37,909 nt of DNA from the NCBI GenBank assembly GCA_025929185.1, contig JAICMO010000011.1, forward strand, positions 1 to 37,909. Direction: 5' to 3'. Below the pieces are notes generated by a model. It saw only the letters and a program-made list of their open reading frames with translations. It was not told where the DNA came from and ran no database searches. Every line of letters starts with the position of its first letter. Within the stretch, counting starts at the first letter, position 1. Below are positions 12,342-31,708 of this stretch, piece after piece. The stretch comes from Pseudolabrys sp. GTDB lineage: Bacteria > Pseudomonadota > Alphaproteobacteria > Rhizobiales > Xanthobacteraceae. A program made the translations under genes and the position numbers.

Positions 12342-13577
12342 ATGAGCTTTGTGATTCGTAACGCCCGCATCCGGGGCCACAAGCAGAGCGTCGATATCGC
12401 CGTCGACGGCGAGAAAATTTCCGCCGTCGAGACCAATTTGCCGGCAAAAGGCGCCACAGAAATCGACGCCGTCGGCAGCCTGGTGTTGCCCGGCTTTTTC
12501 AACCTGCACTACCACGCCGACAAGTGCCTGCTCGGCGAGATCATGCGTCCGAACGTGTCCGGCACGTTGCCGGAGGCGATCGAGATCACCAACGAGTTCA
12601 AGCGCAAATACGATCCGGCCGAGGTCGCCGCGCGCGCCGTGCGCACGATCGAAACGGGAGTGAAAAACGGCACGACGTTCTTTCGCTTGTTCTGCGACGT
12701 GGGCACGATCGGTGGCTTGCAAGCCGCCCGCGGCCTTTTGCTCGCGCGCGAAAAAATGAAGAAGTACTGCCGCATCCAGGTGGTCGCGTTCCCGCAGGAA
12801 GGCATTGTTCGCGATCCCGGCGCCGCCGAGCTTATGGACGAAGCAATCAGGGAAGGCTGCGACATTGTCGGTGGTCTGCCTTGGTATGAATACACCGACG
12901 AGGAAGCGCGTCGGCATATCGACATCTGCTTCGATCTCGCCAAGAAGTACGACCTGGACATCCACATGCTGGTGGACGATACCGACGACGCCAATTCGCG
13001 CAGTCTCGAATATCTTGCCCTCAAGACCCTGCGCGAAGGCTTTCATGGTCGCGTTGCCGCGAGCCACTGCGGGGCGATGGCCGGCTACAACGACGTCTAC
13101 GCCGCGAAAATCGTGGACATAGTGGCGAGCGCCGGCGTTACCATCTCGGTCAACGCGCATATCAATCTCGTCTGCTCGGCGCGGCTCGACCGCGAGCCGA
13201 AACGGCGCGGTATCGCGCGGGTGAAAGAACTGCTGGCGCGCGGGGCCAACGTTGTCACCTCGCAGGACGACGTGAACGACCCCTATTACCCGTTTGGCAA
13301 GCCGGATCCACTGGAATGCGCCGCGATGATGGCGCATGTTGCGCAGCTCACGCTGCCGCATGAACTTGAAACCGTCATGGACATGGTGACGGTGAACAGT
13401 GCGCGCGCTGCGCGCGTTGCCGATTACGGCATCGCTCCTGGGATGCGCGCGGACCTCGTCGTCGTTGGAGCCCCCTCCGTGCATGAGGCGCTTCGCGTAC
13501 AGCCACCGCGGCGGCATGTATTCAAGGACGGGCGCGAAGTCGCGCGCGCCACTCTCAATCAGGAGCTGTTGCCTTGA
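12342..13577 (+). CDS. Cytosine deaminase-like amidohydrolase (CodA/AtzC superfamily)
   Basis: This 411-residue amidohydrolase-superfamily enzyme resembles CodA. It has His56/His58 in NLHYHADKCLL, His208 in DIHMLV, a third His near 242 in AASHCGAM, and a metal Asp near 308 in TSQDDVNDPYYPFG, the counterpart of DDVxDPWYPxG in cytosine deaminase. The segment after His208 (HMLVDDTDDANSR) differs from HCDEIDDEQSR: the catalytic Glu seems replaced by Asp213, with about two extra residues. It deaminates or hydrolyses an aminated N-heterocycle by family precedent; cytosine, isocytosine, ammelide-like triazines or creatinine are candidates. It follows the LVIVD gene by 47 bp and overlaps the next ATPase start (TTGA). 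Confidence 0.88.
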   Translation: MSFVIRNARIRGHKQSVDIAVDGEKISAVETNLPAKGATEIDAVGSLVLPGFFNLHYHADKCLLGEIMRPNVSGTLPEAIEITNEFKRKYDPAEVAARAVRTIETGVKNGTTFFRLFCDVGTIGGLQAARGLLLAREKMKKYCRIQVVAFPQEGIVRDPGAAELMDEAIREGCDIVGGLPWYEYTDEEARRHIDICFDLAKKYDLDIHMLVDDTDDANSRSLEYLALKTLREGFHGRVAASHCGAMAGYNDVYAAKIVDIVASAGVTISVNAHINLVCSARLDREPKRRGIARVKELLARGANVVTSQDDVNDPYYPFGKPDPLECAAMMAHVAQLTLPHELETVMDMVTVNSARAARVADYGIAPGMRADLVVVGAPSVHEALRVQPPRRHVFKDGREVARATLNQELLP

Positions 13578-14401
13578 CTCGCCCCGCCGCCACGCTCCTG
13601 AAATTGGACGCGGCGGCGGCGCATCGGGATTGCTTTGTTCGCCTCCAGAACGTGGACAAAGTCTATGCCGGCCGCGGCGGCGGCCTCAAGGCGGTCGACA
13701 ACGTCTCGCTCGATCTGCACGACGGCGAATTCCTCGCCATCGTTGGGCCCTCCGGCTGCGGCAAGAGCACACTGATGATGATGGTCGCCGGGCTAAGCCC
13801 CGTTAGCGCGGGCGAAATCACCATCAGAGCCCAAAACGTCACGGGGCCATACACGGACGTTGGCGTTGTGTTCCAGCGCGACGCGCTGCTCGAATGGCGC
13901 ACGGTGCTCGACAATGTCCTGCTGCAAATCGACGTGCGGCGGCTGCGGCGCGCCGACTACGAAAAGGCCGCGTACACCTTGCTCGAGCGGGTCGGGTTGG
14001 CCGGCTTCGAGAAAAGCTATCCGTGGGAATTGTCCGGCGGCATGCGCCAGCGCGTGTCGCTCTGCCGCGCGCTCATCCACAATCCGTCGCTGCTGTTGAT
14101 GGACGAGCCGTTCGGCGCGCTCGATGCGCTGACGCGAGAGCAGATGAATCTCGATCTGCAAAAGATCTGGATCGATACGCGCAAAACGATGCTGTTCATC
14201 ACGCACAGCATCTGGGAAGCGATTTTTCTCGCCGACCATGTCATCGTCATGACGCCGCGCCCCGGCCGCATAGCCGCCGTCATCAAGATAGACCTGCCCC
14301 GGCCCCGCCGGCTGGCTGTGCGCGAGACCGCCCAATTCGGACACTATGCAGCAATGGTACGCGAACAATTTCAGGCTTTCGGCCTGCTGAAAGAGAGCTG
14401 A
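13574..14401 (+). CDS. ABC transporter ATP-binding protein (NMT1/SsuB type)
   Basis: This 275-residue ATPase has Walker A GPSGCGKST at 58-66, signature ELSGGMRQR, Walker B LLLMDEPFGALDAL and H-loop ITHSIWEA. The TTG start overlaps the deaminase stop (TTGA), indicating translational coupling. It closely resembles the ATPase at 35678-36481 along most of its length, including FGALDALTREQM and MxPRPGRI, so the two are probably paralogues. It operates with the permease two nucleotides downstream. The operon context implies import of the substrate processed by the flanking deaminase and hydantoinase. Confidence 0.93.
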   Translation: MTRPAATLLKLDAAAAHRDCFVRLQNVDKVYAGRGGGLKAVDNVSLDLHDGEFLAIVGPSGCGKSTLMMMVAGLSPVSAGEITIRAQNVTGPYTDVGVVFQRDALLEWRTVLDNVLLQIDVRRLRRADYEKAAYTLLERVGLAGFEKSYPWELSGGMRQRVSLCRALIHNPSLLLMDEPFGALDALTREQMNLDLQKIWIDTRKTMLFITHSIWEAIFLADHVIVMTPRPGRIAAVIKIDLPRPRRLAVRETAQFGHYAAMVREQFQAFGLLKES

Positions 14402-14403
14402 CG

Positions 14404-15225
14404 ATGCATTCGCCGACCGCAAATGTCCCGGAAACGGTGCCCTGGGTTGCGCGCGTCAGCATGTATGCTTATCCGACGGCGACGGCGCTGCTCATTTTCG
14501 CTGTCTGGGAAGCCGTCACCCGCGCGGGCTGGGTGTCCTCGCTGATCCTTCCAGCGCCAAGCATCATTATAGCGACCAGTTTCGAAAATCTCCCGCTGCT
14601 GCTGCAAATGAGCGGCACGACTGCGGCTGAATTCCTGCTCGGCTTTGCGTTAAGCGTCGCGATCGGGCTGCCGCTCGGCGCGCTTGTCGTCTACGCGCGT
14701 CCGATTGAGCTTGCGATCTACCCACTTCTGGTCGCCTTTCAGACGCTGCCCAAGGCGGCTGTCGCGCCGATCTTCATCGTGTGGCTCGGCACGGGCATCA
14801 CCTCGAAGGTGCTGATCGCTTTCTCCATCGCTTTCTTTCCGATTGTTATCGATACCGTCGTCGGCCTTCGCTCCGCCCAGCCCGAAACGATCCATCTGGT
14901 TCGCTCGATGGGCGGCAGCGCTCTTCAGGTGTTCTGGTACGTGCGATTCCCGAACGCGCTGCCGGCGATATTTGCAGGGCTCAAGGTTGCCAGCACGCTC
15001 GCGGTCGTCGGCGCAATCGTGGGCGAATTCGTCAGCTCGGACCGCGGTCTCGGCTACCTCGTCCTGGTGGCAAATGGAGAACTCAAGACGCCGCTGGTAT
15101 TCGCGTGCGTCCTAATCCTGACGATTCTCGGAATCGTTTTCTATTTCCTCGTCGAACAACTCGAGAAGTTCGTGGTGCGATGGCACGTATCGTCCCGGCA
15201 AGTCGAAGCCGTGGGCACTTACTGA
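14404..15225 (+). CDS. ABC transporter permease (NMT1/SsuC type)
   Basis: This 273-residue permease has about six membrane segments. The EAA-like loop IHLVRSMGGSALQVFWYVRFP precedes LPAIFAGLKVASTLAVVGAI. ATG 14404 follows the ATPase stop by two bases, with GAGAG upstream. It shares VALQTxPKxAxAPxxxV-type and FFPIVI segments with the permease at 36478, again suggesting a duplicated transporter pair. It forms the inner-membrane channel for the binding protein encoded next. Confidence 0.93.
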   Translation: MHSPTANVPETVPWVARVSMYAYPTATALLIFAVWEAVTRAGWVSSLILPAPSIIIATSFENLPLLLQMSGTTAAEFLLGFALSVAIGLPLGALVVYARPIELAIYPLLVAFQTLPKAAVAPIFIVWLGTGITSKVLIAFSIAFFPIVIDTVVGLRSAQPETIHLVRSMGGSALQVFWYVRFPNALPAIFAGLKVASTLAVVGAIVGEFVSSDRGLGYLVLVANGELKTPLVFACVLILTILGIVFYFLVEQLEKFVVRWHVSSRQVEAVGTY

Positions 15226-15257
15226 AAAGGCGCAACAAAACCCAGAGGGAGGCGAAC

Positions 15258-16286
15258 ATGGCAAGCGATCGGCAATCGAAGGCATGCGGCCCGTCACGGC
15301 GCACTTTTCTACGCAGCGCGGCCGGCATCGGCCTGGCGGCGGCGACCGGCGCGCGCATCCGTCCGGCCCGCGCGGCGACGGAAAAGATCAATTTCCAGCT
15401 CGACTGGATTCCTTACGGGCGCCACGCGCCCTACTACGCCGCGCTCGAAAACGGCTTTTATTCCGCCAAAGGACTGGATGTGTCCATCGCGCAGGGCCGC
15501 GGCACGTTGCAAGGTATTCGCACGTTGATTGCCGGGCAATCTCAATTCGTGTTTCAGGATCTCGGCGTGATGATGGCGGTGCGCGCCAAGGAGCATGCCA
15601 AGATCATGGCGCTCGCCTGCATGTACCAAAAGTCCCCACACACGGTGTTCTACATCAAGGGCCACGGCATCGCGAAGCCGAAGGACCTGGAAGGCAAAAA
15701 GATCGCCTTCTCCCCGGGGGATTCGCCGAGGCTGATGTTTCCCGCCTTCGCCAAAGCCAATGGAATCGACGAGTCGAAGATCAAGTGGCTGTCGGTCGAT
15801 CCCAACTCGAAGAATGCCGTCCTGCTCAATCACTCGGCGGACGCGATGATCACGTATCTGTTCACGCTGCCGGTTTTGCAGAAGGCCGCGCAGGGCGGCG
15901 ACGTGGTCGAGACCTTCGTCTATTCCGACTACGGCGCGGACTTCTACTCCAATGGGCTCGGGGCGATGGAGGACTACATCAAGGCGAAGCCGGACGTCAC
16001 CCGCAACTTCGTCCACGCCACCATGGAAGGCGTAAAGTTTACCATCGAGCATCCAAAAGAAGCGATTGCGATGCTGAAAAAACACCAGCCGCAGCTCGAT
16101 GTGGATACGGCGATCAAGGAAGTCGCCATCCTGCGCAAGTTGATCGACTACGACCACCACGCCGGTCCGCTGGGCAGCATCACTCAGGCCAAAATGAAAG
16201 AAACGCAGGACCTGATGGTCAAATATCTCGATCTGAAGAACCCGCCGCCGGTGGCGGAAACCTTCACCAACAAGTTCTTGAGTTGA
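15258..16286 (+). CDS. ABC substrate-binding protein, NMT1/THI5-like, Tat signal
   Basis: This 342-residue binding protein has a twin-arginine leader (SRRTFLRSAAGIGLAAA) and likely cleavage near RPARAA. The mature start INFQLDWIPYGRHAPYYAA and ENGFYSAKGLDV are hallmarks of the NMT1/THI5 group, which includes pyrimidine-precursor binders such as ThiY. DLEGKKIAFSPGDS is the second conserved block. ATG 15258 is fixed by GAGGGAGGCGAAC. It is placed between the permease and a hydantoinase, so a cyclic ureide or pyrimidine ligand is a reasonable inference, but the binding residues cannot be assigned from sequence alone. Confidence 0.92.
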   Translation: MASDRQSKACGPSRRTFLRSAAGIGLAAATGARIRPARAATEKINFQLDWIPYGRHAPYYAALENGFYSAKGLDVSIAQGRGTLQGIRTLIAGQSQFVFQDLGVMMAVRAKEHAKIMALACMYQKSPHTVFYIKGHGIAKPKDLEGKKIAFSPGDSPRLMFPAFAKANGIDESKIKWLSVDPNSKNAVLLNHSADAMITYLFTLPVLQKAAQGGDVVETFVYSDYGADFYSNGLGAMEDYIKAKPDVTRNFVHATMEGVKFTIEHPKEAIAMLKKHQPQLDVDTAIKEVAILRKLIDYDHHAGPLGSITQAKMKETQDLMVKYLDLKNPPPVAETFTNKFLS

Positions 16287-16289
16287 GCC

Positions 16290-17708
16290 GTGGCAATGGC
16301 CGCCAACGCAGCTCAAGAATTCGACCTCGTCGTCCACAACGGCACGCTGGTCATTCCCGGTGCCGGCCAGATCAAGGCCGATGTCGGGATTGCCGGCGGC
16401 AAGATTGTCGCCCTCGCAGAGAATCTTTCGGACACCGCGAAGGAAACCTACGATGCCGGCGGACGAACGGTGCTGCCCGGCATATTCGATCCGCATATCC
16501 ACATCGGGAACGAGCAGCCATACGAGTCGGAAGCGGAGACGGAAACGCGCGCCGCCATCCTGGGCGGCGTGACGACCGTCGGGATCTTCCTGCGCAGTCT
16601 CGAGGATTCCTATTTCGATCACCTGCCGGCTTTCCGCAAGGCGATGGACGAGCGCAGCTACGTCGACTCGGTGTTCCACCCGCAAATTTTCACCGAGCGG
16701 CAGATCGCGGAAATTCCGGGATACGCTGAACGGTTCGGCATCCGCTCGTTCAAGTTCTACATGTCGGGGATGCCGGGAATTGTGAAGTCTGTCACCGACG
16801 ACGTCCTGCTGCATGGCTTCCGCACAGTCGCATCGCTCGGACCGGACGCGGTTGCGTGCGTTCACTGCGAGACCGGCGCGTTGATCGACCGCGCGCGCAA
16901 CGAGCTCAAGGTGCGCAAGCCTGAAGGAACGCTTGCTGATTGGGAGGATGCTCATCCCGCCATCGCGGAAGCGCTTGCAATCCAGACGGCGCTCTACCTC
17001 GCGAAGATCGCCGGCGCACATCTCTACGTCGTGCATCTATCGAGCCGTCAGGGGCTTGCCGTCGTGCGCGCCGCTCGGCGCGCCGGCATGCATTTCACGG
17101 TCGAGACGACTACGCCGTACCTCGGCATCAACAGCGGCGATCCGAACGGCTTTCTTGTGAAGATGGTGCCGCCGGTGCGCACGCCCGAGCACCAGGAGGC
17201 ATTGTGGCAAGGCTTGCTCGAAGGGTCGATCAACACGGTCGGCACCGACAATACCTCGCGCGCCCGCGCCACCAAGAAACCCGAGGCCGGCTTGCACGGC
17301 TCGCGGCCCGGCCTGCCGGCGCTCGGCACGCATCTGCCGGCGCTCCTGCACTACGGCCGTTTGCGGGGTGTGCCACTCGAAATTTTGATCGAGCGCGCAA
17401 CCCGCAGTCCCGCGCGCGTTTACGGCATTTATCCGCAGAAGGGCACGATCGCGGTCGGTTCGGACGCCGATCTCGTCGTGGTCGACCTCGAGCTCGAGCG
17501 AGTCGTGCGCGCCGAAGACCTGCAAGGCATGTCGGACTTTTCGCCGTTCGAGGGGAAAAAGCTGCGTGGCTGGCCGGTGGCGACGATCAAGGCCGGCACG
17601 ATCGTTGCGCGCGACGGCAAGATCGTCGGCAAGCCGAACGGACGCTATCTGCCGCGCAAGCCCGCGCCCGCACGGCGCTTCGAATGGTTCAGAAGTGCGG
17701 AAGCTTGA
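16290..17708 (+). CDS. Dihydropyrimidinase/hydantoinase-family cyclic amidohydrolase
   Basis: This 472-residue cyclic amidohydrolase has the complete binuclear centre: His69/His71 (DPHIHIG), carboxylatable Lys155 (SFKFYM), His192 (VHCET), His249 (VVHLSS) and Asp320 (GTDNTS). It hydrolyses cyclic ureides (dihydropyrimidines, hydantoins, allantoin) by family precedent. Start is GTG 16290 or ATG 16296; neither has a strong ribosome site, and the gene lies 3 bp after the binding-protein stop, suggesting coupling. The C-terminus AVGSDADLVVVDLE followed by GWPVATIKAGTIVARDG is typical. It is last in the operon and convergent with the frameshifted amidohydrolase. A second homologue lies at 32355. 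Confidence 0.92.
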   Translation: MAMAANAAQEFDLVVHNGTLVIPGAGQIKADVGIAGGKIVALAENLSDTAKETYDAGGRTVLPGIFDPHIHIGNEQPYESEAETETRAAILGGVTTVGIFLRSLEDSYFDHLPAFRKAMDERSYVDSVFHPQIFTERQIAEIPGYAERFGIRSFKFYMSGMPGIVKSVTDDVLLHGFRTVASLGPDAVACVHCETGALIDRARNELKVRKPEGTLADWEDAHPAIAEALAIQTALYLAKIAGAHLYVVHLSSRQGLAVVRAARRAGMHFTVETTTPYLGINSGDPNGFLVKMVPPVRTPEHQEALWQGLLEGSINTVGTDNTSRARATKKPEAGLHGSRPGLPALGTHLPALLHYGRLRGVPLEILIERATRSPARVYGIYPQKGTIAVGSDADLVVVDLELERVVRAEDLQGMSDFSPFEGKKLRGWPVATIKAGTIVARDGKIVGKPNGRYLPRKPAPARRFEWFRSAEA

Positions 17709-17736
17709 ACTACGGGACGCGACATTGCCGGAACGA

Positions 17737-18701
17737 TCAGAGCCGCAGCAGACGGCGGGCGTTGCCGCCGAAAATCTTGGCCTTGTCTTCCGCCGAGATC
17801 GGCGTGCCTTCCAGCCAGCGCGCGCCCATCGTGTTGGATGCGAACGGCCAGTCGATCGAGAACATGATCCTGTCGACGCCCATTTCCATCATGCTGCAAA
17901 CGAGCGCGTTGGTGGAGAAATTGCCGCTGGTGGTGAGATGAAAATGCGAGCAGAAGGCGTCGCGAAAAGAGCCGCCGCGGTTGCCGGGGCGCGACAAGGT
18001 CTCGTCGATGCGGCTGAGCAGGAACGGCAAGCCTTCGCCGAGATGGCCGAGGATCACTTGCAGCGTGGGATAGGCGTCGAAGACACCGCTGAGCACCATG
18101 CGCACGCCCTGCGTCGCCGCTTCCACCGTGAAGCCGAGCGCAGGACCGACGAATTCCGGAAACTGTGTCAGGTAGTCCTTGTAGTAAACCTCAATTACAG
18201 CCGGGTGCGGAAACGACGGATGCAGATAGATCGGCACGTCGAGCTTCGCGGCGCGCTCGAAATCGGCCAGAACTGCTTGTCATCGATGAACCTGCCGTTG
18301 GTCAAGCCGTGAACCATTGCGCCCTTGAACCCGAGCTTCGTTACGGTGCGCTCAAGCTCGTCGGCCGCGGCTTTGGGATCGGGCGTTGGCAGGATGCCAA
18401 GCGCGGCAAACCGCGTCGGATTGGCTTTGACAATTTCCGCCAGCCGGTCGTTGGCCTGGCGCGAAAGCTGAACCGCTGGTTCCGCTTGCATCTTTTGCGT
18501 GCCGGGCGCGCCATGCGAAAGTACCTGGATATCAATGCCCGCTTCATCCATCTCCTTGATGCGAAGATCGGTGATGTCCTGCAATCGCTTTTCAACCTCG
18601 GACAGGCGCTTGCCCTCGCGCCCCGGAAAATGCGCGACCAGATCGCGATCCCAATAATGCTCCTCGAGCGTGACGACGCACGACGCGAAACGGTTGGCCA
18701 T
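17737..18701 (-). pseudogene. Frameshifted amidohydrolase (PF04909)
   Basis: Two frames together spell one amidohydrolase-2 protein of about 321 residues. The N-terminal part (from ATG 18701: MANRFASCVVTLEEHYWD) runs to FIDDKQFWPI. The remainder resumes in another frame at DVPIYLHPSFPHP and continues through ILGHLGEG and SIDWPFAS to GGNARRLLRL. The break lies at the AAA run 18260-18262 (plus strand), where one additional A would restore ...FWPIFERAAKLDVPIYLH. Metal His residues (YLHP, LGHLGEG) and Asp (SIDWPF) are otherwise intact, so inactivation is recent or the base loss is a sequencing error. It is divergent from the barbiturase-family gene. Confidence 0.85.
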
Positions 18702-18832
18702 AAGCCGATGTCCTTCATGCAAGGCGATGGCCGGTTATACCGACCAGCATATGCGCCGACCATATCCAAATTTGCAGAGCGGATGCGATTCTGAATTTTC
18801 AAAAGCGACAACGGAGAAAACTGGAACGTCCA
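18702..18832. promoter_or_regulatory. Divergent promoter region, amidohydrolase / barbiturase-family gene
   Basis: This 131-bp gap contains AAATTTGCA (18768-18776), which resembles the AATTTGCATTA variant (complement of 6336-6346) but not the full TTTGTAT motif. No other structure was recognised. Confidence 0.25.
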
Positions 18833-19927
18833 ATGGCGATCGAAGTGCTCAAGGTTGAATTGAAGACGGTGCAAGACGCATCGGGACTGGAGGACGCAAT
18901 AAATGCGGGCGTCTTCCAGGCGGACGAAGTCATTGCCGTGATCGGCAAAACCGAGGGAAACGGCGGCGTCAACGATTTCACCCGCATCCTCGCCGATCAG
19001 GCCTATCGCCGCGTGCTCCTCAAACACGGCAAGCGCGACGAAAAAGCGGTTGCGCAAATCCCGATGGTCTGGTCGGGCGGCTGCGACGGCGTGATGACGC
19101 CGCATGCCACGATTTTCGCGCGCAACGGCAAAACGGGTCCGGCATCCGAGTCGCGACTGGCGATCGGCACATCGATGAGCGCGGAATTGCTGCCCGAAGA
19201 TATCGGCCGGCCGGCGATGGTCGAAAAGGTTGCCGACGCCGTAAAAGAGGCCATGCGCGACGCCGGCATCGACGATCCAAACGACGTTCACTACGTGCAA
19301 ACCAAGACGCCGTTGCTCACTATCGATTCGGTGCGCGATGCCGAGTCGCGAGGGCATCACGTCGCCTGCGAGGTGCACGACTCCATGGGAGTATCGAACG
19401 GCACCACCGCGCTCGGCATTGCGATGGCGCTCGGTGAAATCAAGATGCCAAAAGCCGAAGAAATCTGCCGCAATCTGGACCTTTATTCCTCCGTTGCTTC
19501 TTGTTCGTCGGGAGTCGAGCTAACGCAAGCGCAGATCGTTTTGCTTGGCAACAAGCCCGGAGCCGGCGGCCGTTACCGGATCGGCCATTCCGTCATGCAG
19601 GACGCCCTTGATATTGACGGCATTTACGACGCCATCCGCAATGCCGGCCTGAGCCTGCCGGACCGTCCGCGTGCCAGCGATCTCAATGGCAAAGTCGTCA
19701 ACTGTTTCATGAAGTGCGAAGCCGACCGCCGCGGCACGTTGCGCGGCCGACGCCAAATCATGCTCGACGATTCCGACGTCCATCATCACCGGCATTCCAA
19801 GGCGGCGGTGAGCGGAGTAGCCGCAACGGCCATTGGCGACCCGGCCGTGTTCGTCTCTGTTGACGCCATGCATCAGGGGCCGCAAGGCGGCGGCCCGGTC
19901 GTTGCGATCATCGATGCCGGTGAGTGA
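18833..19927 (+). CDS. Ring-opening amidohydrolase: barbiturase / cyanuric acid hydrolase family
   Basis: This 364-residue protein belongs to the small AtzD/TrzD/barbiturase family, which has a threefold internal repeat (Toblerone fold) and three Ser-Lys pairs. All three are visible: Lys39 (IGKTEGNGG) with Ser81 (WSGGCDGV), Lys158 (QTKTP) with Ser226 (SCSSGVEL), and Lys294 ([10 protein letters not shown]) with Ser342 ([13 protein letters not shown]). Family members hydrolytically open barbiturate to ureidomalonate or cyanurate to carboxybiuret, in the cytoplasm. The neighbouring amidase, the deaminase, and the molybdenum hydroxylase 7 kb away favour barbiturate, but key substrate-selecting residues need a structural alignment. 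It is followed after 27 bp by the amidase in one operon. Confidence 0.93.
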
Positions 19928-19954
19928 GCGATCGGATCAAGGGAATTCGCGCCT

Positions 19955-21370
19955 ATGACCGACGATGAACTATGGCGAAAATCGACTTGCGAGCTCGTAT
20001 CGCTCATCCGCAGGCGGAAAATAAGCCCGCTTGAGCTCTTCGATTCGCAGCTCTCGGCCATCGAGCGCTTCAATCCGAAACTCAATGCCATCGTCACGCT
20101 GGCTGCGGATCAGGCACGGGAAGCCGCGCGCCAGGCGGAGCAAGCTGTCATGCGCGACGCAACACTTGGCTCGCTGCATGGCATCCCGATCGGCATCAAA
20201 GACGTGACGCCAACCGCGGGAATTCGCACCACGTATGGCTCACCGCTGTTCAAGGATCATGTCCCGTCCGAAGACGCGGAAGTGGTGAGCCGCCTGAAAG
20301 CGGCCGGCGCCATTGTGCTCGCCAAGACCAACACGCCGGAGTTCGCGGCCGGCGCGAACACAGTCAATCCGTTATTCGGCGCTACACGCAATCCGTGGAA
20401 CACGTTGCTCAGCCCGGCCGGTTCTTCCGGAGGCTCGGCGGCCGCGGTCGCGAGCGGGATGCTGCCGATCGCGCAAGGCACCGATTTCGGCTGCTCCATC
20501 CGGATTCCTGCCGCGTTCTGCGGCATCGTCGGCATTCGCCCCACCCCGGGGCTGACGCCGAACTATCCCATACGGCTCGGCTGGGATCCGGGCCAGGTGC
20601 ACGGCCCCCTCGCCCGCAACGCGGAAGACGCCGCTCTTTTTCTTGATGCAATCGTCGGGTTCACGCGCCGCTCGCCAATCTCGGTTGAGCCGCCTTGGGC
20701 CAGTAGTTTCGATGTCGTCGAGAGAACCCGCGACGCCAAAGGCGTTCGCATCGCCTTCGCACGCGACATTGCGGGTATCGGCGTCGATGTTGAAATCGAG
20801 GCAATCTGCCGCAAGGCTGCCGAGAGGTTGCGTGCGCAAGGAGCAACCGTCGAGGAGATCGATCTCGATCTTTCCGCCGGACGCGACCCATACAAGACTT
20901 GGCGCGGCGTCTGGATGGTCGGGCAGCAGTTTCGCAATCTGCGACGGCTCGAGGAGTTCGGAGAAAACCTCAAGGGCAACGTCAAATCCGGCCTGACGAT
21001 CACCACGCAGGATATCGCCGCCGCAGAAGGAGTGCGCATTGCGCTGTTTCAGAAAATGGCGGAGCTGTTTGAGCGCTACGACGTACTGATGACACCAGCG
21101 GCGCCGGTGAAACCTTATCCGGTGGAGATCAATTTCCCGAATGAGATCAACGGCAGAGCTTTCGATAATTACATTGACTGGATTGCGCCGGCCTTCCTCA
21201 TCACCTTGCTCAGCCTTCCGGCCGCAAGCGTGCCCGCCGGGCTAACTGCTGACAACCTGCCGGTCGGCTTGCAAATCGTCGGACCACGCTTTGACGAGCC
21301 GAGATTGTTGGCGCTCGCCAAACTGGTGGCACAGGCTAACCCGATCGGCTGGCCGCCGATCTCGCGCTAG
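19955..21370 (+). CDS. Amidase-signature hydrolase, candidate ureidomalonase or carboxybiuret/biuret amidase
   Basis: This 471-residue amidase-signature enzyme has catalytic Lys82 (GIPIGIKDVTP), the Ser-rich cis-Ser segment SPAGSSGGSAAAVASG (153-168) and the nucleophile Ser181 in GTDFGCSIRIPA, where Cys180 replaces the common Gly. Family members cleave linear amides, and AtzE/AtzF act on cyanurate ring-opening products. Placement directly after the barbiturase-family gene suggests it cleaves that enzyme's product (ureidomalonate to malonate and urea, or carboxybiuret). ATG 19955 is preceded by AAGGGA. Its stop shares the palindrome CTAG with the stop of the convergent MBL-fold gene. Confidence 0.92.
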   Translation: MTDDELWRKSTCELVSLIRRRKISPLELFDSQLSAIERFNPKLNAIVTLAADQAREAARQAEQAVMRDATLGSLHGIPIGIKDVTPTAGIRTTYGSPLFKDHVPSEDAEVVSRLKAAGAIVLAKTNTPEFAAGANTVNPLFGATRNPWNTLLSPAGSSGGSAAAVASGMLPIAQGTDFGCSIRIPAAFCGIVGIRPTPGLTPNYPIRLGWDPGQVHGPLARNAEDAALFLDAIVGFTRRSPISVEPPWASSFDVVERTRDAKGVRIAFARDIAGIGVDVEIEAICRKAAERLRAQGATVEEIDLDLSAGRDPYKTWRGVWMVGQQFRNLRRLEEFGENLKGNVKSGLTITTQDIAAAEGVRIALFQKMAELFERYDVLMTPAAPVKPYPVEINFPNEINGRAFDNYIDWIAPAFLITLLSLPAASVPAGLTADNLPVGLQIVGPRFDEPRLLALAKLVAQANPIGWPPISR

Positions 21371-22269: not shown

Positions 22270-22294
22270 CGCGGCGCGGTTCGCGGGTTCAATG

Positions 22295-22693: not shown

Positions 22694-22742
22694 GTCCGGC
22701 TTCCTGTTGAGATGGTTTTACATCGGCGGCACGCAGACCGCA

Positions 22743-23537: not shown

Positions 23538-24430
23538 TTGAACCGGCCCGGCCGCCGCAAAAGCGAGGATTTCCGCACGGGCGTCCACAGAGCGACGGCG
23601 ACCAACACCGCGGTCACGACGTTCACGTCGGACGCGGTCAGCCCGATGGCGTTGCTGCTCAGCGCCAGCGCCAGCGCGATCCGGTAAAGGATCGAGCCCA
23701 ACACGCACGCGAGCGTCAACATTGAAATGGCGCGCGATGGCATCAGCGCGGTGCCGCCGATCACGGCGGCAAGCGCGACAACGATGACACCGATGCCCAT
23801 CGAGACATCGGCGGCGCCCAACATTTGCGCAAACAGAGCCCCGCTCAGCGCCGTCAGCCCGTTGGCGATCGCCAAGCCCACCACGATCATGCGGCCGACC
23901 TGAATGCCGTTCGCCTCCGCCATGCGCGGATTGGCGCCGGCCGCGCGCATCGCCAGCCCAAATCCCGTTCCGAGGAAGAGATCGATCGCGATTTTGGCAA
24001 CGACGACGACGATGGCCAAGAGCACCATCGGCGCGTAAAGCGACGGCACCCCGAGCTGTTCAAACGGCGTGTAGACCGTTGTCATGTTGATGAGCCCGAT
24101 GTTCGGCCGATCCATGACGCGCAGGTTGACCGAATAGAGCGCAATCGCCGTCAGGATGCCGGCGAGGATGTGCAGGATGCGCAGCTTGCGATTGAGAAAG
24201 GCGGTGGCGAAGCCTGCGAGGCAGCCGGTGAGCCCGGCAACGAAGGTCGCCGTCCAGGCGTCGACGCCGCTGACCATGAGCTTGGCGGCGACCGCGGCGC
24301 CGAGCGGAAACGAGCCCTCAACCGTCAGGTCGGGAAAATCCAGCACCCGAAAGGTGAGATAGGCGCCCAACGCGACGAGCGCGAAAGCCAAGCCCGTCTC
24401 GAGAGCGCCGGTGAAAGCGTAGAGACTCAA
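23534..24430 (-). CDS. ABC transporter permease, TrpY-like (BPD_transp_2)
   Basis: This 298-residue permease is very hydrophobic, with eight to ten membrane segments and the conserved stretch RVLDFPDLTVEGSFPLGAAV typical of this permease class. GFGLAMRAAGANPRMAEANG is the cytoplasmic coupling region. The start is TTG 24430, because an in-frame TAA lies two codons upstream and the next Met is well inside the first repeat. It is coupled to the ATPase by an ATGA overlap. Confidence 0.9.
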   Translation of the reverse strand: MSLYAFTGALETGLAFALVALGAYLTFRVLDFPDLTVEGSFPLGAAVAAKLMVSGVDAWTATFVAGLTGCLAGFATAFLNRKLRILHILAGILTAIALYSVNLRVMDRPNIGLINMTTVYTPFEQLGVPSLYAPMVLLAIVVVVAKIAIDLFLGTGFGLAMRAAGANPRMAEANGIQVGRMIVVGLAIANGLTALSGALFAQMLGAADVSMGIGVIVVALAAVIGGTALMPSRAISMLTLACVLGSILYRIALALALSSNAIGLTASDVNVVTAVLVAVALWTPVRKSSLLRRPGRFK

Positions 24431-24459
24431 GTTTTACGTCCGAAGGCTCGTCGTAACCG

Positions 24460-25434
24460 TTAGAAGACCTGCGCCGCCCTTTTCAGCAAAGCCGGCGAGA
24501 GCTTCACGCCCATTTTCTCGGCCGATTCCTTGTTGACGTAGAGCGCAAGCGAGTTCGGCAAGTCCTTCATGTATTGAACGTCCATGTCGCCCGGCTTGGT
24601 GCCTTTGAAGACCTTGTCCACCATATCAGCCGTGCGCTTGCCCATGTCCACGAAATCGAACCCGACCGTGGCGACGGCCCCGCGTTGCACGCTGCGGCGT
24701 TCGGCGGTGAATATCGGCAACTTGGCGTCTTGCGCGACCTTCACCAGCGATTCGAAGGCGCCATAGACCGTCGTGTCGTTAGGCACGAAAATCGCGTCGA
24801 CCTTGCCGACGAGCGCTTGCCCGGCGCTCGGGACATTGTTGAGACCCATTGCCGGCGATTCGACCGTCTTGAAGCCCATCTTCGGCGCCAACGCCTTCAC
24901 ACTCTCGACCGTCGAACGTGCGTTATCGAGACTCGGATCATAGACGAGGCCGAGCCGCTTCAGGTTCGGCACGATCTCCTTGACGATGTCGAGTTGCCGC
25001 TCGGTTGGAACGAGATCCGATATGCCCGACGCATTGCCGCCGGGATGCTTGAGCCGCGGCACGAGCTTCGATTTGAGCGGATCGGTCACGGTCGTGAAGA
25101 TGATCGGGATGTCTTTGGTCGCCGCCACCGCGGCCTGGCTGGTCGGGGTCGTGATGGTGACGATCACATCGGGCTTTTCGCCGATGAACTGGCGCACAAT
25201 TTGTTGCGCTGTGCCGAAATTACCTTGTGCGCTCTTGAAATCGACCTTGAGATTCTTGCCCTCAACATAGCCGTGCGCGGCGAGGCCCTTGATGAGACCG
25301 TCTTTCACCTCGAGCAGCTGAGGCGTGTCGTTCATGGTGATGATTGACATCGTCTTGACATCTGCCGCATGCGCCGACGTGCCGAGCGCAAGGCAGAACA
25401 GTGCGCTTATGAAAGCCAGCAAGGTCTTCCGCAT
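24460..25434 (-). CDS. ABC substrate-binding protein, TrpX-like (PF04392)
   Basis: This 324-residue periplasmic protein has a clear signal peptide (MRKTLLAFISALFCLALG, cleavage after SAHA). The ABC_sub_bind signature blocks are present: IVRQFIGEKPDVIVTITTP, IPIIFTTVTDPL, GNASGISDLVPTERQL and DAIFVPNDTTVYGA. The family includes tryptophan and tyrosine binders and many of unknown ligand. AGGGAGG lies seven bases before ATG 25434. It follows the M20 deacylase in the same operon, so an acylated or amidated amino-acid-like ligand is possible. Confidence 0.93.
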   Translation of the reverse strand: MRKTLLAFISALFCLALGTSAHAADVKTMSIITMNDTPQLLEVKDGLIKGLAAHGYVEGKNLKVDFKSAQGNFGTAQQIVRQFIGEKPDVIVTITTPTSQAAVAATKDIPIIFTTVTDPLKSKLVPRLKHPGGNASGISDLVPTERQLDIVKEIVPNLKRLGLVYDPSLDNARSTVESVKALAPKMGFKTVESPAMGLNNVPSAGQALVGKVDAIFVPNDTTVYGAFESLVKVAQDAKLPIFTAERRSVQRGAVATVGFDFVDMGKRTADMVDKVFKGTKPGDMDVQYMKDLPNSLALYVNKESAEKMGVKLSPALLKRAAQVF

Positions 25435-25459
25435 TTATTTCCTCCCTGATGCCCGGACT

Positions 25460-26746
25460 TCAGCCCGTTGTCGTATTACGATTGCACAACTCCATCGCGG
25501 TCAGCGCGTAAATTTTCGTTGCCTTGATCATGTCCTCGACGGCGAAATACGTGTTGCCGCCGCCGGCGCCCGCGCCGCAGCCATAGGTTAGCGACGGAAT
25601 GCCAAGCTCATTGTAAGGATTGATGTCGCGCCACATGCTGCACTCCGGCGCGCCGGCCGGCTCCGACGGCCTGCCGATGACGGTCTGGTGCGCGATTTCG
25701 AGCGAGTCCTTCAGCGGCTCGATGCCTTCTGCATTGAAGCCCCGCCGATAGAGGAACGGCCGCACCTCGGCTTTCACGCCGAGCTTGGCGACGATGGCTT
25801 CGAGCTCCTCCTTGATGGTCAGCGGCCCCGTATCGGGATTGAGACGGACGTCGAGATAGATCGAGCACAGCTCGGGAATGCGGTAGACCTTGTAGGGAAC
25901 GCCGCCGCGGATCGCGCCGATCACGGCCTTCGGCACAACCGTGCCGCCGCTGTAAGTCTTGGTGTAGCGTTTCTCGTAGCCGTCCGCCCATTCCTCGATC
26001 GCTTCGATGAGCTTCGCCATTCGCACGATGGCATTTGGGCTCTTGAACGCCGGCAGCGGGCGCGGAACGTAAGGCGTATAACGCGAGGGCCCGGCATAAA
26101 CCGTGATCTTCACGTAGACCTTGCCGGCCTCGACCCAGGCGGGCTTGAAGTTGGTCGCCTCTGCGACGAGCGCATAGTGGCTGATTGCCCCGTGCGTGAT
26201 CGCAAATCGCGTGCCGATGTCGTTGCCAAGGTAGTCGTGACCCTGGAATTCGTCGACCGCGTCCCCACACAACTCACCGCACACCGCCGAGAGCACGATA
26301 TCGCCCTTGAGTCTCACCTTTGCGTTTTGCAGCGCCTTGGCGGCAATCAGCCAGCAAGCCATCGGGCCTTTGCAGTTGACCAGCGGATAGCCCCAGATCT
26401 TGCCGTCTTCCAGCCACGCCTCGTGATAAATGCGGTCGTTGGCGTCGGTAAAACGCGCGCTGTCCTCGCGCGACATGATCGTGTCGAGATGGCTGTTAAA
26501 GGAGAGGCTTGGGCCACCACCCGCCCCGGTGACGCGACCGATAACGTTAAAGCGATCCTCGTAGACGCCGATACGCTCCGGCCTGAAGCCGTTTTGCGCC
26601 ATCCATTCGTAAACGTAATTGCCGGCCTCGCGCTCTTTGCCGAGCGGCGCTTCGATATTTCCGAGATCGAGGCCGAGCTTGGTTAGCTCGTCGCACAGCG
26701 CGTCGACGGCGCTGCACACGTGGTCTTTCGCGGACCGATCGAGCAT
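25460..26746 (-). CDS. M20-family deacylase (ArgE/DapE-like) with altered metal motifs
   Basis: This 428-residue M20-type metallohydrolase has His86 and Asp88 (FNSHLDT). Two other landmark motifs depart from textbook. The bridging-Asp block reads YPLVNCKGPMA with Asn124 in place of Asp, and the general-base block reads SAVCGELCGD with a single Glu158. Glu196 (ALVAEATNF) is kept and DEFQGHDY follows, as in a distinct ArgE-like subgroup. It may hydrolyse an N-acyl or N-carbamoyl compound, or may be altered in metal content. First gene of the operon with the TrpXYZ-like importer, divergent from the molybdenum hydroxylase. ATG 26746 has only a weak GGGGAT upstream. Confidence 0.85.
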   Translation of the reverse strand: MLDRSAKDHVCSAVDALCDELTKLGLDLGNIEAPLGKEREAGNYVYEWMAQNGFRPERIGVYEDRFNVIGRVTGAGGGPSLSFNSHLDTIMSREDSARFTDANDRIYHEAWLEDGKIWGYPLVNCKGPMACWLIAAKALQNAKVRLKGDIVLSAVCGELCGDAVDEFQGHDYLGNDIGTRFAITHGAISHYALVAEATNFKPAWVEAGKVYVKITVYAGPSRYTPYVPRPLPAFKSPNAIVRMAKLIEAIEEWADGYEKRYTKTYSGGTVVPKAVIGAIRGGVPYKVYRIPELCSIYLDVRLNPDTGPLTIKEELEAIVAKLGVKAEVRPFLYRRGFNAEGIEPLKDSLEIAHQTVIGRPSEPAGAPECSMWRDINPYNELGIPSLTYGCGAGAGGGNTYFAVEDMIKATKIYALTAMELCNRNTTTG

Positions 26747-26764
26747 TTGCTCATCCCCGAATTA

Positions 26765-26771
26765 TTTGTAT
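26765..26771. promoter_or_regulatory. TTTGTAT site in the M20 / molybdenum-hydroxylase divergent promoter
   Basis: TTTGTAT followed by G (26765-26772) repeats the eight bases at 10974-10981. It lies in the 68-bp gap between ATG 26746 (minus) and ATG 26815 (plus), so one bound factor could affect both transcripts. Only one full copy is visible here. Confidence 0.35.
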
Positions 26772-26814
26772 GCTAACGATCTGAGCGAAGCCGAGTCAAT
26801 TAGAACGTTCACCG

Positions 26815-27693
26815 ATGAAGGCTCCCCGGTTCGAGTACGTGCGGCCGACCCGGTTGGAGGACGCCATCGGATTTCTCGCTCGGCATGGCGGGGACGCCAA
26901 AGCGATCGCCGGCGGGCAAAGCCTCGTTCCGATGATGGCGTTCCGGCTCGCCGCCCCGCGCCTCCTGGTCGACATCGGCCGCATCCCTGGCCTCAACGGT
27001 ATTGCCGTCGACGACGATGGAATTCGCCTCGGCGCGCTCGTGCGATGGCGAGATATCGAACGTAGCGCGGAACTGCAGCGCGCACATCCTTTGCTGGTCG
27101 AGGCGGTGCGGCATGTCGCGCATTACCAGATCCGCAATCGCGGCACGGTCGGCGGCAGCCTCGCCCATGCCGATCCCGCGGCGGAAATGCCCGGGATCGC
27201 AGTCACCTGCGATGCGCAGATCGTCGTCGTCGGCCCGCGCGGGCGGCGGATCATCGCAGCGGCCGAATTTTTTGCCGCAGCACTTTCCACGACGCTTGCG
27301 GCGGATGAATTGATAATCGAGGTGCAGCTTCCGCCGTGGCGCGACAACCGCCGCTGGGCGTTCGAAGAATTTGCGCGCAGGCGTGGCGATTTCGCGCTCG
27401 CAGGTGTCGCGCTGTTTTACGATGGCGGCGCAGACGGCACGGCGACCAACATCCACATCGGAGCTATCGGCGTTGGCGATACGCCGGTGCGGCTCACCGC
27501 CGCCGAGAGTGCCGTCGAAGCCAAACGCATTACCGCATCTATCATCCGCGACGCGGGCGCCGCGGCCGCCGCCAGCGTCAAGCCCGCCGACGACATTCAC
27601 GCTCCTGGCGAATACCGCCGTGCTCTGCTGGGCGTGCTGACTGAACGCGCCCTCGCCCGCGCCGCCGGACTGGCCTTGCGGGAGGACGCATGA
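26815..27693 (+). CDS. Molybdenum hydroxylase FAD-binding subunit (CoxM/XdhB-like)
   Basis: This 292-residue subunit has the two FAD motifs of this family: AGGQSLVPMMAFR from residue 32 and TVGGSLAHADPAAEMP at 110-124. It passes electrons from the Fe-S subunit to an acceptor through FAD. It opens a three-gene cluster in FAD, Fe-S, Mo order (coxMSL order), with its stop overlapping the next start (ATGA). No strong ribosome site was seen before ATG 26815. Confidence 0.95.
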   Translation: MKAPRFEYVRPTRLEDAIGFLARHGGDAKAIAGGQSLVPMMAFRLAAPRLLVDIGRIPGLNGIAVDDDGIRLGALVRWRDIERSAELQRAHPLLVEAVRHVAHYQIRNRGTVGGSLAHADPAAEMPGIAVTCDAQIVVVGPRGRRIIAAAEFFAAALSTTLAADELIIEVQLPPWRDNRRWAFEEFARRRGDFALAGVALFYDGGADGTATNIHIGAIGVGDTPVRLTAAESAVEAKRITASIIRDAGAAAAASVKPADDIHAPGEYRRALLGVLTERALARAAGLALREDA

Positions 27694-28184
27694 GCGGCCG
27701 CGCGACAGTGCAATTCACCGTCAACGGCAAGCACTATGCAGCCGATGTCGAGCCACGTACGACGCTCGTCGATTGCCTGCGTCACGACCTCAAGCTGACG
27801 GGCACGCACGTTGGCTGCGAGCACGGCGTCTGTGGCGCCTGCACGGTCATTCTCGATGGCGCGGCGGTGCGCGCCTGCCTGATGTTTGCGGTGCAGGCCG
27901 AGGGTGCGGACATCGTAACCGTCGAGGGGCTGGCCGACGGTGACCGCTTGAGCCCGCTGCAAGCCTCGTTCCGCAAGCATCACGCGCTGCAATGCGGATT
28001 TTGCACGCCGGGCATCCTGACTACCGCGCACACGCTGCTCAGCGAAGAGCCAGACGCCGATGCCGACCGCATTCGCGAGGTTTTGTCCGGTAATATCTGC
28101 CGCTGTACCGGCTACGTGCAGATTGTCGAGGCGGTGCTCGACGCCCGAGCCGCGTACAAGCAAAAGTGGGCTGCCGCACTGTGA
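27690..28184 (+). CDS. Molybdenum hydroxylase [2Fe-2S] subunit (CoxS/XdhC-like)
   Basis: This 164-residue iron-sulfur subunit has Cys43, Cys48, Cys51 and Cys63 forming the plant-ferredoxin-like cluster (GCEHGVCGAC), and Cys102, Cys105, Cys137 and Cys139 forming the second cluster (QCGFCTPG, GNICRCTGY). Length and cysteine spacing are standard. It is coupled on both sides by overlapping stop/start codons (ATGA at 27690, GTGA at 28181). Confidence 0.97.
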   Translation: MSGRATVQFTVNGKHYAADVEPRTTLVDCLRHDLKLTGTHVGCEHGVCGACTVILDGAAVRACLMFAVQAEGADIVTVEGLADGDRLSPLQASFRKHHALQCGFCTPGILTTAHTLLSEEPDADADRIREVLSGNICRCTGYVQIVEAVLDARAAYKQKWAAAL

Positions 28185-30487
28185 CCGCCGTCCGCAACGT
28201 TTACATCGGCCAGGAGATCGAGCGAACCGAGGATTTCCGATTCCTGACCGGCCGTGGAACGTTCGTGGACGACTACGAACCGACCGGCTTGCTGCATGCC
28301 GCCATTCTGCGTAGCTCCGTCGCGCATGGCCGCATTCGGAAAATCGATGCTTCGGCTGCTATAAAAATGGCGGGCGTACACGCGGTCATTACCGCCGCCG
28401 ATATTGGCGAGAAAATTCCCACCATTCCCATCCGCCTCGCGCCGATCAAAGGACTTGAGCGTTACCTCCAGCCGGTGATCGCGACGGAAAAGGTTCGCTA
28501 TGTCGGAGAGCCGATCGCCGTCGTTCTTGCCGAGACCCGCGCAATCGCAGAAGACGCTACGGCGGAAATCGAGCTTGAAATCGAAACACTCGCGCCGGTT
28601 CCCGACTGGCGAGTTGCCGAAACAGATAGCACACTTTTGGTCGAGCAGAACGGCACCAATGTAGCAACGCGCTACGCCGTCGGCTCTGGCGATGCGGATG
28701 CGGCTTTTGCCATAGCAGATTACACAAGGCGCGAGTTCTTCCACGCGCACCGCCACACGGCCGTGCCGATGGAAACACGGGGCCTCGTGGCCGAATGGGA
28801 TGCGGCTAACGAGCGGCTGGTCGTCACCGGCGCCACCAAGGTCACGTTCTTCAACCGGCGTGCGCTGGCAGCCATGATGCAGATGCCTGAGAGCGCGATC
28901 GATTTCATCGAGATCGACGTTGGCGGCGGCTTCGGCGTGCGGGGCGAGTTTTATCCGGAAGACTTCCTCATCCCCTTCGCGGCGCGCATGACAAGGCGTC
29001 CGGTAAAATGGATCGAGGATCGGACCGAGCATCTGCAAGCCGCCAATCATTCGCGCGAAATCGATTGCGAACTCGAAATCGCCTGCCGCCACGACGGCAC
29101 CATTCTCGCGTTGCGCGGACGCATTCACGGCGACATGGGCGCCTATACCCGCACCAATTCCGGCGTCGTGCCTGCGAAAGCGGCGCAGTTCCTGCACGGC
29201 CCCTATCGCATTCCCGCGGTAAAGTTTGACGTTGCCGCCTACATGACGAGCAAGACGCCAATCGGCACCTATCGGGCGCCGGGACGCTTCGAGGCGAATT
29301 TCTTCCGCGAGCGGCTGATCGACATGGCCGCACGAGACCTGAACATCGACCCGGTCGAATTCCGACGAAAAAATCTGATCGCGACGAACGAGATGCCCTA
29401 CTCCATCGGCAAACTCGTGCCTTACGAAAATGAAAGCGCCTACGACAGCGGGGACTATCACGTCGCTCTCGAAAAGTGCCTCGCGGCGTTCGGCTGGCAA
29501 GAGAAGAAGAATTTGCAAGGCCGCAATATCGACGGGCGGTATCACGGTCTCGCTGTGACGTGCTTCGTCGAAAGCGGCGGCGCCGGTCCGCGCGAAAACG
29601 TGCGCATGCTCCTGGAACGGGATGGCCGCGTCACGGTCGCAATCGGCTCATCGGTGCTCGGCCAGGGTTTGGAAACCGTGTTCGCGCAAATCGCCGCCGA
29701 CGCGCTGGAATTGCCATTCGAGGCGTTTCGGGTCCTGCACGGCTCAACCACGCTGCTCGACGAAGGCTTCGGCACCTACCACTCGCGCGCGGTGGTGATG
29801 GGCGGCTCCGCCATTCTCGACGGCGCCAAAAATCTCTTGAGCGCGATTCGCGCTGCGGCGAGCCTGCAATTCAACTGCCGCGCGGACGAGGTCTCAATCG
29901 ATGGCGGCAAGGCGAAGGGGCCGGACGGCCGGACACTGACGTTTGCCGCGCTCGCGGCGGCAGCCGGGCCGATCTCGGCGAATGGCACATTTGCGAATGC
30001 CCAGCGTACTTTCAGTTACGGCGCGCACGCCGCGCATGTCGCGGTCGACGCGCGGACCGGGCATGTTGCGGTCCTCGATTATGTCGCGGTGGAGGACGTC
30101 GGCCGCGCCATCAATCCCGCGCTCGTGCACGGGCAAACCCTGGGCGCTGTGGTGCAGGGTTTAGGTGGCGTATTTCTCGATCACTTGATTTACGACGCCA
30201 ACGCGCAATTGCTGAATGCATCGCTGGCGGACTACTTGCTGCCCACCGCAACGGACTTTCCGCACATCCGCGGCGTGACGCTTGAGTTGCACCGTTCGCC
30301 GAGCAACCCGCTCGGCGCCAAAGGCGCGGGCGAAGGAGGCATGGTTGCGGTGGCTGCCACCGCAGCAAACGCGGTTGCCGCTGCGCTCTCAAGCTTCGGC
30401 GTTCAGCCGAACGACTTGCCGCTGTCGCCGCCGCGCATCTGGCAACTGCTGCGCGACGCAGCGAGCGGGCGACAGCGCGCCCCGTGA
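28181..30487 (+). CDS. Molybdenum hydroxylase large (molybdopterin) subunit, XDH family
   Basis: This 768-residue Mo subunit has the molybdopterin-contact motif GGGFGVRGEF near residue 247, YRAPGRFEANFF near 364 and the catalytic Glu near 717 in GAKGAGEGG. The YRAPGR segment lacks the Cys of true CO dehydrogenase (AYRCSFR), so CO oxidation is unlikely; hydroxylation of an N-heterocycle or aldehyde fits. GTG 28181 overlapping the Fe-S stop (GTGA) is preferred over GTG 28166. Uracil/thymine dehydrogenase (EC 1.17.99.4) of the oxidative pyrimidine route is classed as a flavin/Fe-S/Mo enzyme, which matches the nearby barbiturase-family gene. Nicotinate, purine or other ring substrates remain possible. 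Confidence 0.95.
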   Translation: MTAVRNVYIGQEIERTEDFRFLTGRGTFVDDYEPTGLLHAAILRSSVAHGRIRKIDASAAIKMAGVHAVITAADIGEKIPTIPIRLAPIKGLERYLQPVIATEKVRYVGEPIAVVLAETRAIAEDATAEIELEIETLAPVPDWRVAETDSTLLVEQNGTNVATRYAVGSGDADAAFAIADYTRREFFHAHRHTAVPMETRGLVAEWDAANERLVVTGATKVTFFNRRALAAMMQMPESAIDFIEIDVGGGFGVRGEFYPEDFLIPFAARMTRRPVKWIEDRTEHLQAANHSREIDCELEIACRHDGTILALRGRIHGDMGAYTRTNSGVVPAKAAQFLHGPYRIPAVKFDVAAYMTSKTPIGTYRAPGRFEANFFRERLIDMAARDLNIDPVEFRRKNLIATNEMPYSIGKLVPYENESAYDSGDYHVALEKCLAAFGWQEKKNLQGRNIDGRYHGLAVTCFVESGGAGPRENVRMLLERDGRVTVAIGSSVLGQGLETVFAQIAADALELPFEAFRVLHGSTTLLDEGFGTYHSRAVVMGGSAILDGAKNLLSAIRAAASLQFNCRADEVSIDGGKAKGPDGRTLTFAALAAAAGPISANGTFANAQRTFSYGAHAAHVAVDARTGHVAVLDYVAVEDVGRAINPALVHGQTLGAVVQGLGGVFLDHLIYDANAQLLNASLADYLLPTATDFPHIRGVTLELHRSPSNPLGAKGAGEGGMVAVAATAANAVAAALSSFGVQPNDLPLSPPRIWQLLRDAASGRQRAP

Positions 30488-31693: not shown

Positions 31694-31708
31694 GATGCTG
31701 CTCCTAAG

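Follow-up and report, generated by a model that had tools for sequence, protein, structure and literature searches.

Barbiturase precedes ureidomalonase in the known pathway, and in a 2013 survey it forms a Group VI that comprises only actinobacteria (Peat 2013, PMC3758960). The same text distinguishes it from AtzD-type enzymes by five specificity residues (N, H, K, V, and S/A instead of R, T, R, G, and G), the fifth position being among the listed active-site differences. Here, we analysed a stretch of 37,909 nucleotides (the window) from a draft genome of Pseudolabrys sp. (3.63 Mb, 281 contigs, 90% complete), which encodes a ring-opening enzyme related to barbiturase and an adjacent amidase. 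The original prediction, made from the window alone, had proposed a complete set for oxidative pyrimidine degradation via uracil and barbiturate. Gene calls and family scans recovered all four enzyme classes that it named within 18 kb, i.e. a cytosine-deaminase-like (CDA-like) amidohydrolase, the ring opener, the amidase, and a xanthine dehydrogenase (XDH)-type Mo hydroxylase, as well as the hydantoinase-type proteins, NMT1-type ABC importers, and MocR regulator around them (Table 1). Of the proposed set, the barbiturase held up and the amidase step is plausible, whereas deamination and oxidation by the window's own enzymes did not find support. With moderate confidence, we favour a reading in which the ring opener and the amidase form the core of the locus, while the genes around the CDA-like protein and the Mo hydroxylase would serve other substrates.

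Family and signature of the ring opener

The ring opener matches PF09663 with 470 bits, and its three Ser-Lys pairs, already recognised in the original prediction, are complete (K39, K158, and K294 with S81, S225, and S342). In a PDB sequence search, its top relative of solved structure is 5hwe, annotated as "Barbiturase" (495 bits), compared to 325, 319, 307, 244, and 239 bits for cyanurate hydrolases and 184 bits for the "ring-opening amidohydrolase" 5hy0. Sequence identity is 65.0% to 5hwe versus 47.0%, 45.8%, 42.5%, and 39.9% to four cyanurate hydrolases. A phylogenetic tree of 105 distinct rows (111 tblastn segments, references, and the window protein, with identical rows removed), in which 5hwe is the single barbiturase reference, places the window protein on a branch (support 100/98) that also holds 5hwe, 81 further rows, and two rows from actinobacteria. 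A second branch (95/83) consists of the four cyanurate hydrolases together with 14 paralogues found in the genus of the window. Within the cyanurate hydrolases, the tree tool gave a warning about adjoining long branches, a problem that does not touch the barbiturase split. We take 5hwe to be Bar of Rhodococcus erythropolis and hence count it as actinobacterial.

The window protein reads N, H, K, V, D at the five signature positions and thus has four of the five barbiturase residues (N195, H321, K325, and V345 in AtzD numbering), which it shares, like the six Ser/Lys residues, with the Group VI enzyme 5hwe; position 346 is Ser in 5hwe and Asp in the window, and the hosts of the window's clade are non-actinobacterial. 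The Azorhizobium cyanuric acid hydrolase (CAH) 4nq3 and the genus paralogues have the fold family and the Ser-Lys pairs in common with the window protein, but differ in identity (42.5% for 4nq3), in their position on the separate branch, and in the signature, which is R, T, R, G, G in 14/14 of the paralogues. A further study describes the motif SGGxExQGPxGGGP and two conserved Arg residues for cyanurate hydrolases (PMC9118981); the motif is not found in the ring opener, in which the Arg residues at AtzD positions 195 and 325 are replaced by Asn and Lys. At the position of AcCAH Arg188, 5hwe and all barbiturase-type rows have Asn, in agreement with Peat 2013 and unlike the Gln given for the barbiturase group in PMC4051656.

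The ring opener would be a cyanuric acid hydrolase if NF052395, the cyanuric acid amidohydrolase equivalog of NCBIfam, were taken at face value, since the protein scores well above its cut-off (456 versus 360 bits). This model also accepts the PDB barbiturase 5hwe (478 bits) and therefore does not separate the two activities, so that automatic annotation may well name these barbiturases cyanuric acid amidohydrolases. Moreover, related genomes of the genus carry an additional paralogue of the cyanurate type, and for the one that we examined (L014; L numbers denote loci or contig stretches and G numbers surveyed genomes) the top solved relative is the Azorhizobium CAH, indicating that the genus holds both ring-opener types. 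Together with tree, identity, and signature, which led us to reject this assignment, these observations make it highly improbable. A firm place of the ring opener in the cyanurate clade was among the outcomes that would have refuted the original prediction; the protein falls outside that clade, and a barbiturase-type enzyme with a predicted role in barbiturate ring opening is well supported.

Two adjoining, divergent members of the ring-opener family are encoded at positions 8435 and 11394 of L026 (G018). They have 34% identity to the window protein, carry the signatures RDRGG and KDRAN, and lie on very long branches apart from both main branches.

The adjacent amidase and conserved neighbourhoods

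The amidase gene starts 27 bases downstream of the end of the ring opener. For the analysis of neighbourhoods, 110 loci were reduced by 12 duplicates and the odd locus L026 to 83 barbiturase-type and 14 cyanurate-type loci, the latter from the same genus as the window. The compared loci differ in length, and the locus counts given here and below ignore kinship. Relatives of the amidase (at least 45% identity) occur in 33/83 barbiturase-type loci (25/59 in loci of at least 12 kb) and in none of the 14 cyanurate-type loci. As ureidomalonase follows barbiturase in the known pathway, our best inference is that the amidase is a ureidomalonase (N-malonylurea hydrolase, EC 3.5.1.95), which would be a plausible partner step. 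The ring opener would then convert barbiturate to ureidomalonate (3-oxo-3-ureidopropanoate), which the amidase would most likely hydrolyse to malonate and urea. Two other assignments of the amidase were rejected, as it scores far below the cut-offs for AtzE-type carboxybiuret hydrolase (204 versus 426) and allophanate hydrolase (174 versus 511).

HyuA (hydantoinase/oxoprolinase type) is another conserved neighbour, present in 31/83 barbiturase-type and 1/14 cyanurate-type loci. L040 exemplifies a frequent arrangement, HyuA–HyuB–barbiturase–NMT1-type importer–amidase, which is preceded by a LysR gene in L022. Within 29 kb, the actinobacterium Embleya (L121) encodes an apparent HyuB (first residues only), a CodA-type deaminase, a barbiturase, and a Mo hydroxylase. 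Among the annotated genes of the window, HyuAB is absent. The cyanurate-type loci, found among L014–L038, contain, in 14/14 cases, members of the hydantoinase-family ORF cluster and of a second cluster tentatively named SDR.

The cassette of the cytosine-deaminase-like protein

Compared to family models, the CDA-like protein is nearest to the cytosine deaminase subfamily, yet it remains below the cut-off (355 versus 438 bits). It aligns over its full length with Escherichia coli CodA (238 bits) and belongs to the same amidohydrolase subfamily, keeping H61, H63, Q156, H246, and D313 of the CodA structure 1k6w, whereas H214 and E217 are replaced by Leu and Asp. CodA is characterised by H61, H63, H214, D313, and E217, with H214 and E217 as catalytic positions. 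Its six nearest orthologues among the aligned sequences share the Leu/Asp change of the CDA-like protein. Relatives with at least 35% identity are found in 24/83 barbiturase-type loci (22/59 in loci of at least 12 kb) versus 0/14 cyanurate-type loci; both CodA residues are kept in 20 of these 24 proteins and replaced by Leu and Asp in four. At other loci, canonical CodA motifs are found close to a barbiturase, Embleya L121 and L078 (a Rokubacteria bin) being two examples. With Leu and Asp at these positions, the window's protein is probably not a canonical cytosine deaminase, and the deamination step that had been assigned to it is not supported.

The CDA-like gene is part of a cassette with genes for an LVIVD-repeat protein and a hydantoinase-family protein (HYD), which recurs at 78%–86% identity in L070, L165, L166, L168, and L169. 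Of these, only L070 has a barbiturase beside the cassette, and none is found on the stretches of L165, L166, L168, and L169 (15.4, 7.2, 19.9, and 16.9 kb, respectively). In L168, the cassette adjoins a MocR relative (53% identity). The LVIVD gene itself is found at 81%–87% identity in nine other genomes of the family, and its carriers frequently encode the barbiturase type (6/9 versus 22/197 family genomes, p = 7e-5, own genome excluded and kinship uncorrected). The LVIVD protein is modelled as a beta-propeller (pLDDT 92), with the phosphotriesterase 5hrm as best match in both fold and sequence, and may be an enzyme of this cassette, whose substrate is probably a cyclic amide or ureide of a related kind. 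The protein is rich in invariant His, Glu, and Asp residues, and in the family genomes surveyed it is one of a large group of paralogues.

Two clades of Mo hydroxylases

All three subunits (FAD, 2Fe-2S, and Mo) of the XDH-type hydroxylase are present in the window. The two proteins of solved structure most closely related to the Mo subunit, 6-hydroxypseudooxynicotine dehydrogenase (7dqx) and quinoline 2-oxidoreductase (1t3q), are compatible with a role in N-heterocycle oxidation, a kinship that names no substrate; the window's enzyme differs from both in its location beside hydantoinase-like genes. An assignment to the aerobic CO dehydrogenases was rejected, as the Mo subunit scores below the cut-offs and has YRAPGR in place of the Cys motif of CO dehydrogenases.

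Mo large subunits (at least 30% identity) are found in 15/83 barbiturase-type loci (13/59 in loci of at least 12 kb) and 0/14 cyanurate-type loci. A tree of 31 rows covers 14 of these 15 loci, the sequence from L072 being too short, and 12 of the 14 barbiturase loci fall into one clade (support 100/99) that spans Alphaproteobacteria, Rokubacteria and Acidobacteria bins, and the actinobacterium Embleya. The Mo subunits of the window and L065 lie outside this barbiturase-linked clade and belong to a different one with 13 rows (100/100); the two from L115 are placed elsewhere. On L132, L133, L135, L136, L137, and L141, which belong to the window's Mo clade, no barbiturase is found within the 15–20 kb of each, although several rows of this clade are on short contigs, for which a nearby barbiturase is possible. 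Within the barbiturase-linked clade, the gene order of L046 (FAD–FeS–Mo–NCS2 uracil/xanthine-type permease–barbiturase) includes a permease that points to uracil.

As the compared loci had been preselected by the presence of barbiturase, the exclusiveness of this link was surveyed in 198 genomes of the family, with the best five candidates per genome scored. Orthologues of the L046-type Mo subunit (75%–79% identity) occur in 10/198 genomes, 6/10 of which also have the barbiturase type (p = 1.5e-4, own genome excluded). At the threshold applied, the other four (G134, G046, G217, and G222) gave no match to barbiturase, so that the link, though strong, is not absolute. The genome of the window itself lacks an L046-type orthologue at the survey threshold.

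The Mo hydroxylase of the window is adjacent to a cassette on the opposite strand that includes an isochorismatase-VOC fusion gene. The fusion gene, orf31709, a second hydantoinase-like gene (HYD2), and the importer ATPase and permease recur in six other genomes, four of which also have the DpaA-like and octopine-dehydrogenase-like genes. In G015 and G001 (L180 and L181), a Mo hydroxylase with 38% identity faces the fusion gene as in the window, and a member of the window's Mo clade is encoded ~7 kb past the importer end in the same two genomes (L135 and L133). The fusion protein (30513–31499, minus strand) has full-length relatives at 67%–79% identity in five other genomes of the 198 and a relative at 78% in G001, with no clear link to barbiturase in the family (2/5 carriers versus 22/197, p = 0.10). 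The product of orf31709 (31709–32341, minus strand), without a Pfam match, has 44%–57% identity to its counterparts in the same cassette of the six genomes. We recognised no known pathway in this cassette.

For the window's Mo hydroxylase, a role in the neighbouring HYD2/isochorismatase cassette or with another N-heterocycle as substrate is more likely. Its location and its place outside the barbiturase-linked clade leave the proposed function as uracil/thymine dehydrogenase (EC 1.17.99.4) unsupported as far as sequence comparison goes, with evidence that is mixed, as the co-occurrence at the genus level described below keeps an oxidation step possible for this enzyme. The barbiturase-linked clade appears to be the better candidate for the uracil dehydrogenase.

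Observations against the proposed barbiturase–amidase core

Besides the NF052395 match, several observations weigh against our reading. The fifth signature residue of the ring opener is Asp and not Ser or Ala, suggesting that barbiturate itself may not be the substrate. An amidase like that of the window is missing from the two actinobacterial loci read (L120 and L121) and therefore may not be a general ureidomalonase. Urease alpha is not detected over the cut-off (23 versus 680 bits) in the 90%-complete genome. In addition, genomes of the genus with a window-type Mo hydroxylase tend to have the barbiturase type (7/9 carriers versus 13/39 genomes, p = 0.003; 6/9 carriers and p = 0.014 without the fragmentary G015), and in L065 the two genes are at most 10 kb apart.

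The co-occurrence of the window-type Mo hydroxylase with the barbiturase type would fit a complete pathway in the window, in which the CDA-like protein converts cytosine to uracil and the Mo hydroxylase uracil to barbiturate for the barbiturase and the amidase. All classes lie within 18 kb, and five further non-redundant loci (L065, L048, L078, L087, and L121) combine a barbiturase, a Mo hydroxylase, and a CDA-like gene; the co-occurrence of the LVIVD gene with barbiturase points in the same direction. Nevertheless, given the loss of CodA H214 and E217 and the position of the Mo hydroxylase outside the barbiturase-linked clade and beside a different cassette, we consider this pathway unlikely.

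The Asp residue leads to another alternative, according to which the ring opened by this clade is not barbiturate itself. The substrate would be, for instance, a barbiturate with a substituent or a different 2,4,6-oxygenated pyrimidine, and the partners LVIVD-CDA-HYD or HyuAB would produce it. AtzD position 346 is Asp in 82/82 distinct non-actinobacterial rows (the window and 81 others, all of which read N, H, K, V, D), whereas the three actinobacterial rows have Ser or Ala, the two actinobacterial loci reading N, H, K, V, A. The enrichment of HyuA and the altered catalytic residues of the window's CDA-like enzyme would also agree with a modified substrate. The other four barbiturase signature residues are kept, however, and HyuAB is not encoded in the window, so that we regard this alternative as doubtful. 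A broader proposal is similarly tentative: a distinct modified-ring opener in the Asp344 clade, working with HyuAB or LVIVD-CDA-HYD, and a uracil/thymine dehydrogenase encoded by the Mo clade of L046, L078, L121, and others. The conserved neighbours provide testable gene candidates for uracil dehydrogenase and ureidomalonase.

Distribution of the barbiturase type

The barbiturase type is found in 14/40 genomes of the genus (including a fragmentary copy in G015) and 23/198 genomes of the family, each count including the genome of the window. A scan of species genomes yielded 100 relatives, and the 80 best ones were retained. Judged from their sequences, the non-actinobacterial, Asp-bearing rows form a distinct sister clade to the barbiturases of actinobacteria, with members mainly from proteobacteria. 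The clade is frequent in Alphaproteobacteria and also occurs on contigs from bins of Beta- and Gammaproteobacteria, Rokubacteria, Acidobacteria, Spirochaetota, and Chloroflexi, these being metagenome bins with uncertain host names. Relative to the 2013 survey (PMC3758960), this clade is new. The original prediction had described the pathway as known mainly from actinobacteria, in accordance with that survey, and had considered a proteobacterial cluster with dedicated importers and a MocR regulator notable, whereas the counts above show that the proteobacterial gene is no rarity. This suggests that barbiturate ring opening in soil and water is far more widespread than the survey indicated. A literature search, with most subscription papers outside its reach, found, among the papers listed, neither a description of a barbiturase gene cluster from proteobacteria nor a sequence for ureidomalonase or uracil dehydrogenase.

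Gene inventory of the window

Table 1. Features of the Pseudolabrys sp. window (positions refer to the 37,909-nucleotide stretch)
Feature	Position	Strand	Evidence
MocR-type regulator (GntR and aminotransferase domain), divergent from the LVIVD gene	9425–11059	-	
LVIVD-repeat protein (beta-propeller), start probably at 11185; found with the CDA-like and HYD genes in a conserved cassette	11116–12294	+	PF08309
Cytosine-deaminase-like (CDA-like) amidohydrolase; CodA H214 to Leu, E217 to Asp	12342–13577	+	Amidohydro_3/1, CodA alignment
ABC importer: ATPase 13574–14401, permease in ORF 13894–15225, NMT1-type binding protein in ORF 14781–16286	13574–16286	+	
HYD, hydantoinase/dihydropyrimidinase family, part of the LVIVD-CDA-HYD cassette	16290–17708	+	Family scans, cassette conservation
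Amidohydrolase-2 gene remnant (C-terminal half, broken frame), between HYD and barbiturase	17737–18340	-	
Barbiturase-type ring opener (Toblerone fold)	18833–19927	+	PF09663, tree, 5hwe identity, signature N189, H319, K323, V343, D344
Amidase-signature protein, candidate ureidomalonase (N-malonylurea hydrolase)	19955–21370	+	PF01425, neighbourhood counts
Three-subunit Mo hydroxylase: FAD 26815–27693, 2Fe-2S 27690–28184, Mo 28166–30487	26815–30487	+	
Cassette: isochorismatase-VOC fusion, orf31709, HYD2 (hydantoinase-like), DpaA-like, octopine-dehydrogenase-like, ABC importer	30513–37806	-	

RutA and the Rut pathway are not detected over the cut-off in the genome of the window (RutA 40 bits versus a cut-off of 498). 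The 1.1 kb interval between HYD and the barbiturase was considered as a gene and rejected, its content being the broken remnant of an amidohydrolase-2 gene; L070 has an amidohydrolase-2 gene with an open frame a short distance upstream of its barbiturase. Between positions 6511 and 37806, the window encodes four ABC importers, with three binding proteins of the NMT1/THI5 type and one assigned to PF04392. Finally, the gene at 4969–6252 (minus strand) encodes a protein with two RidA-type (Ribonuc_L-PSP) stretches, a relative of which is found upstream of the barbiturase in L070.

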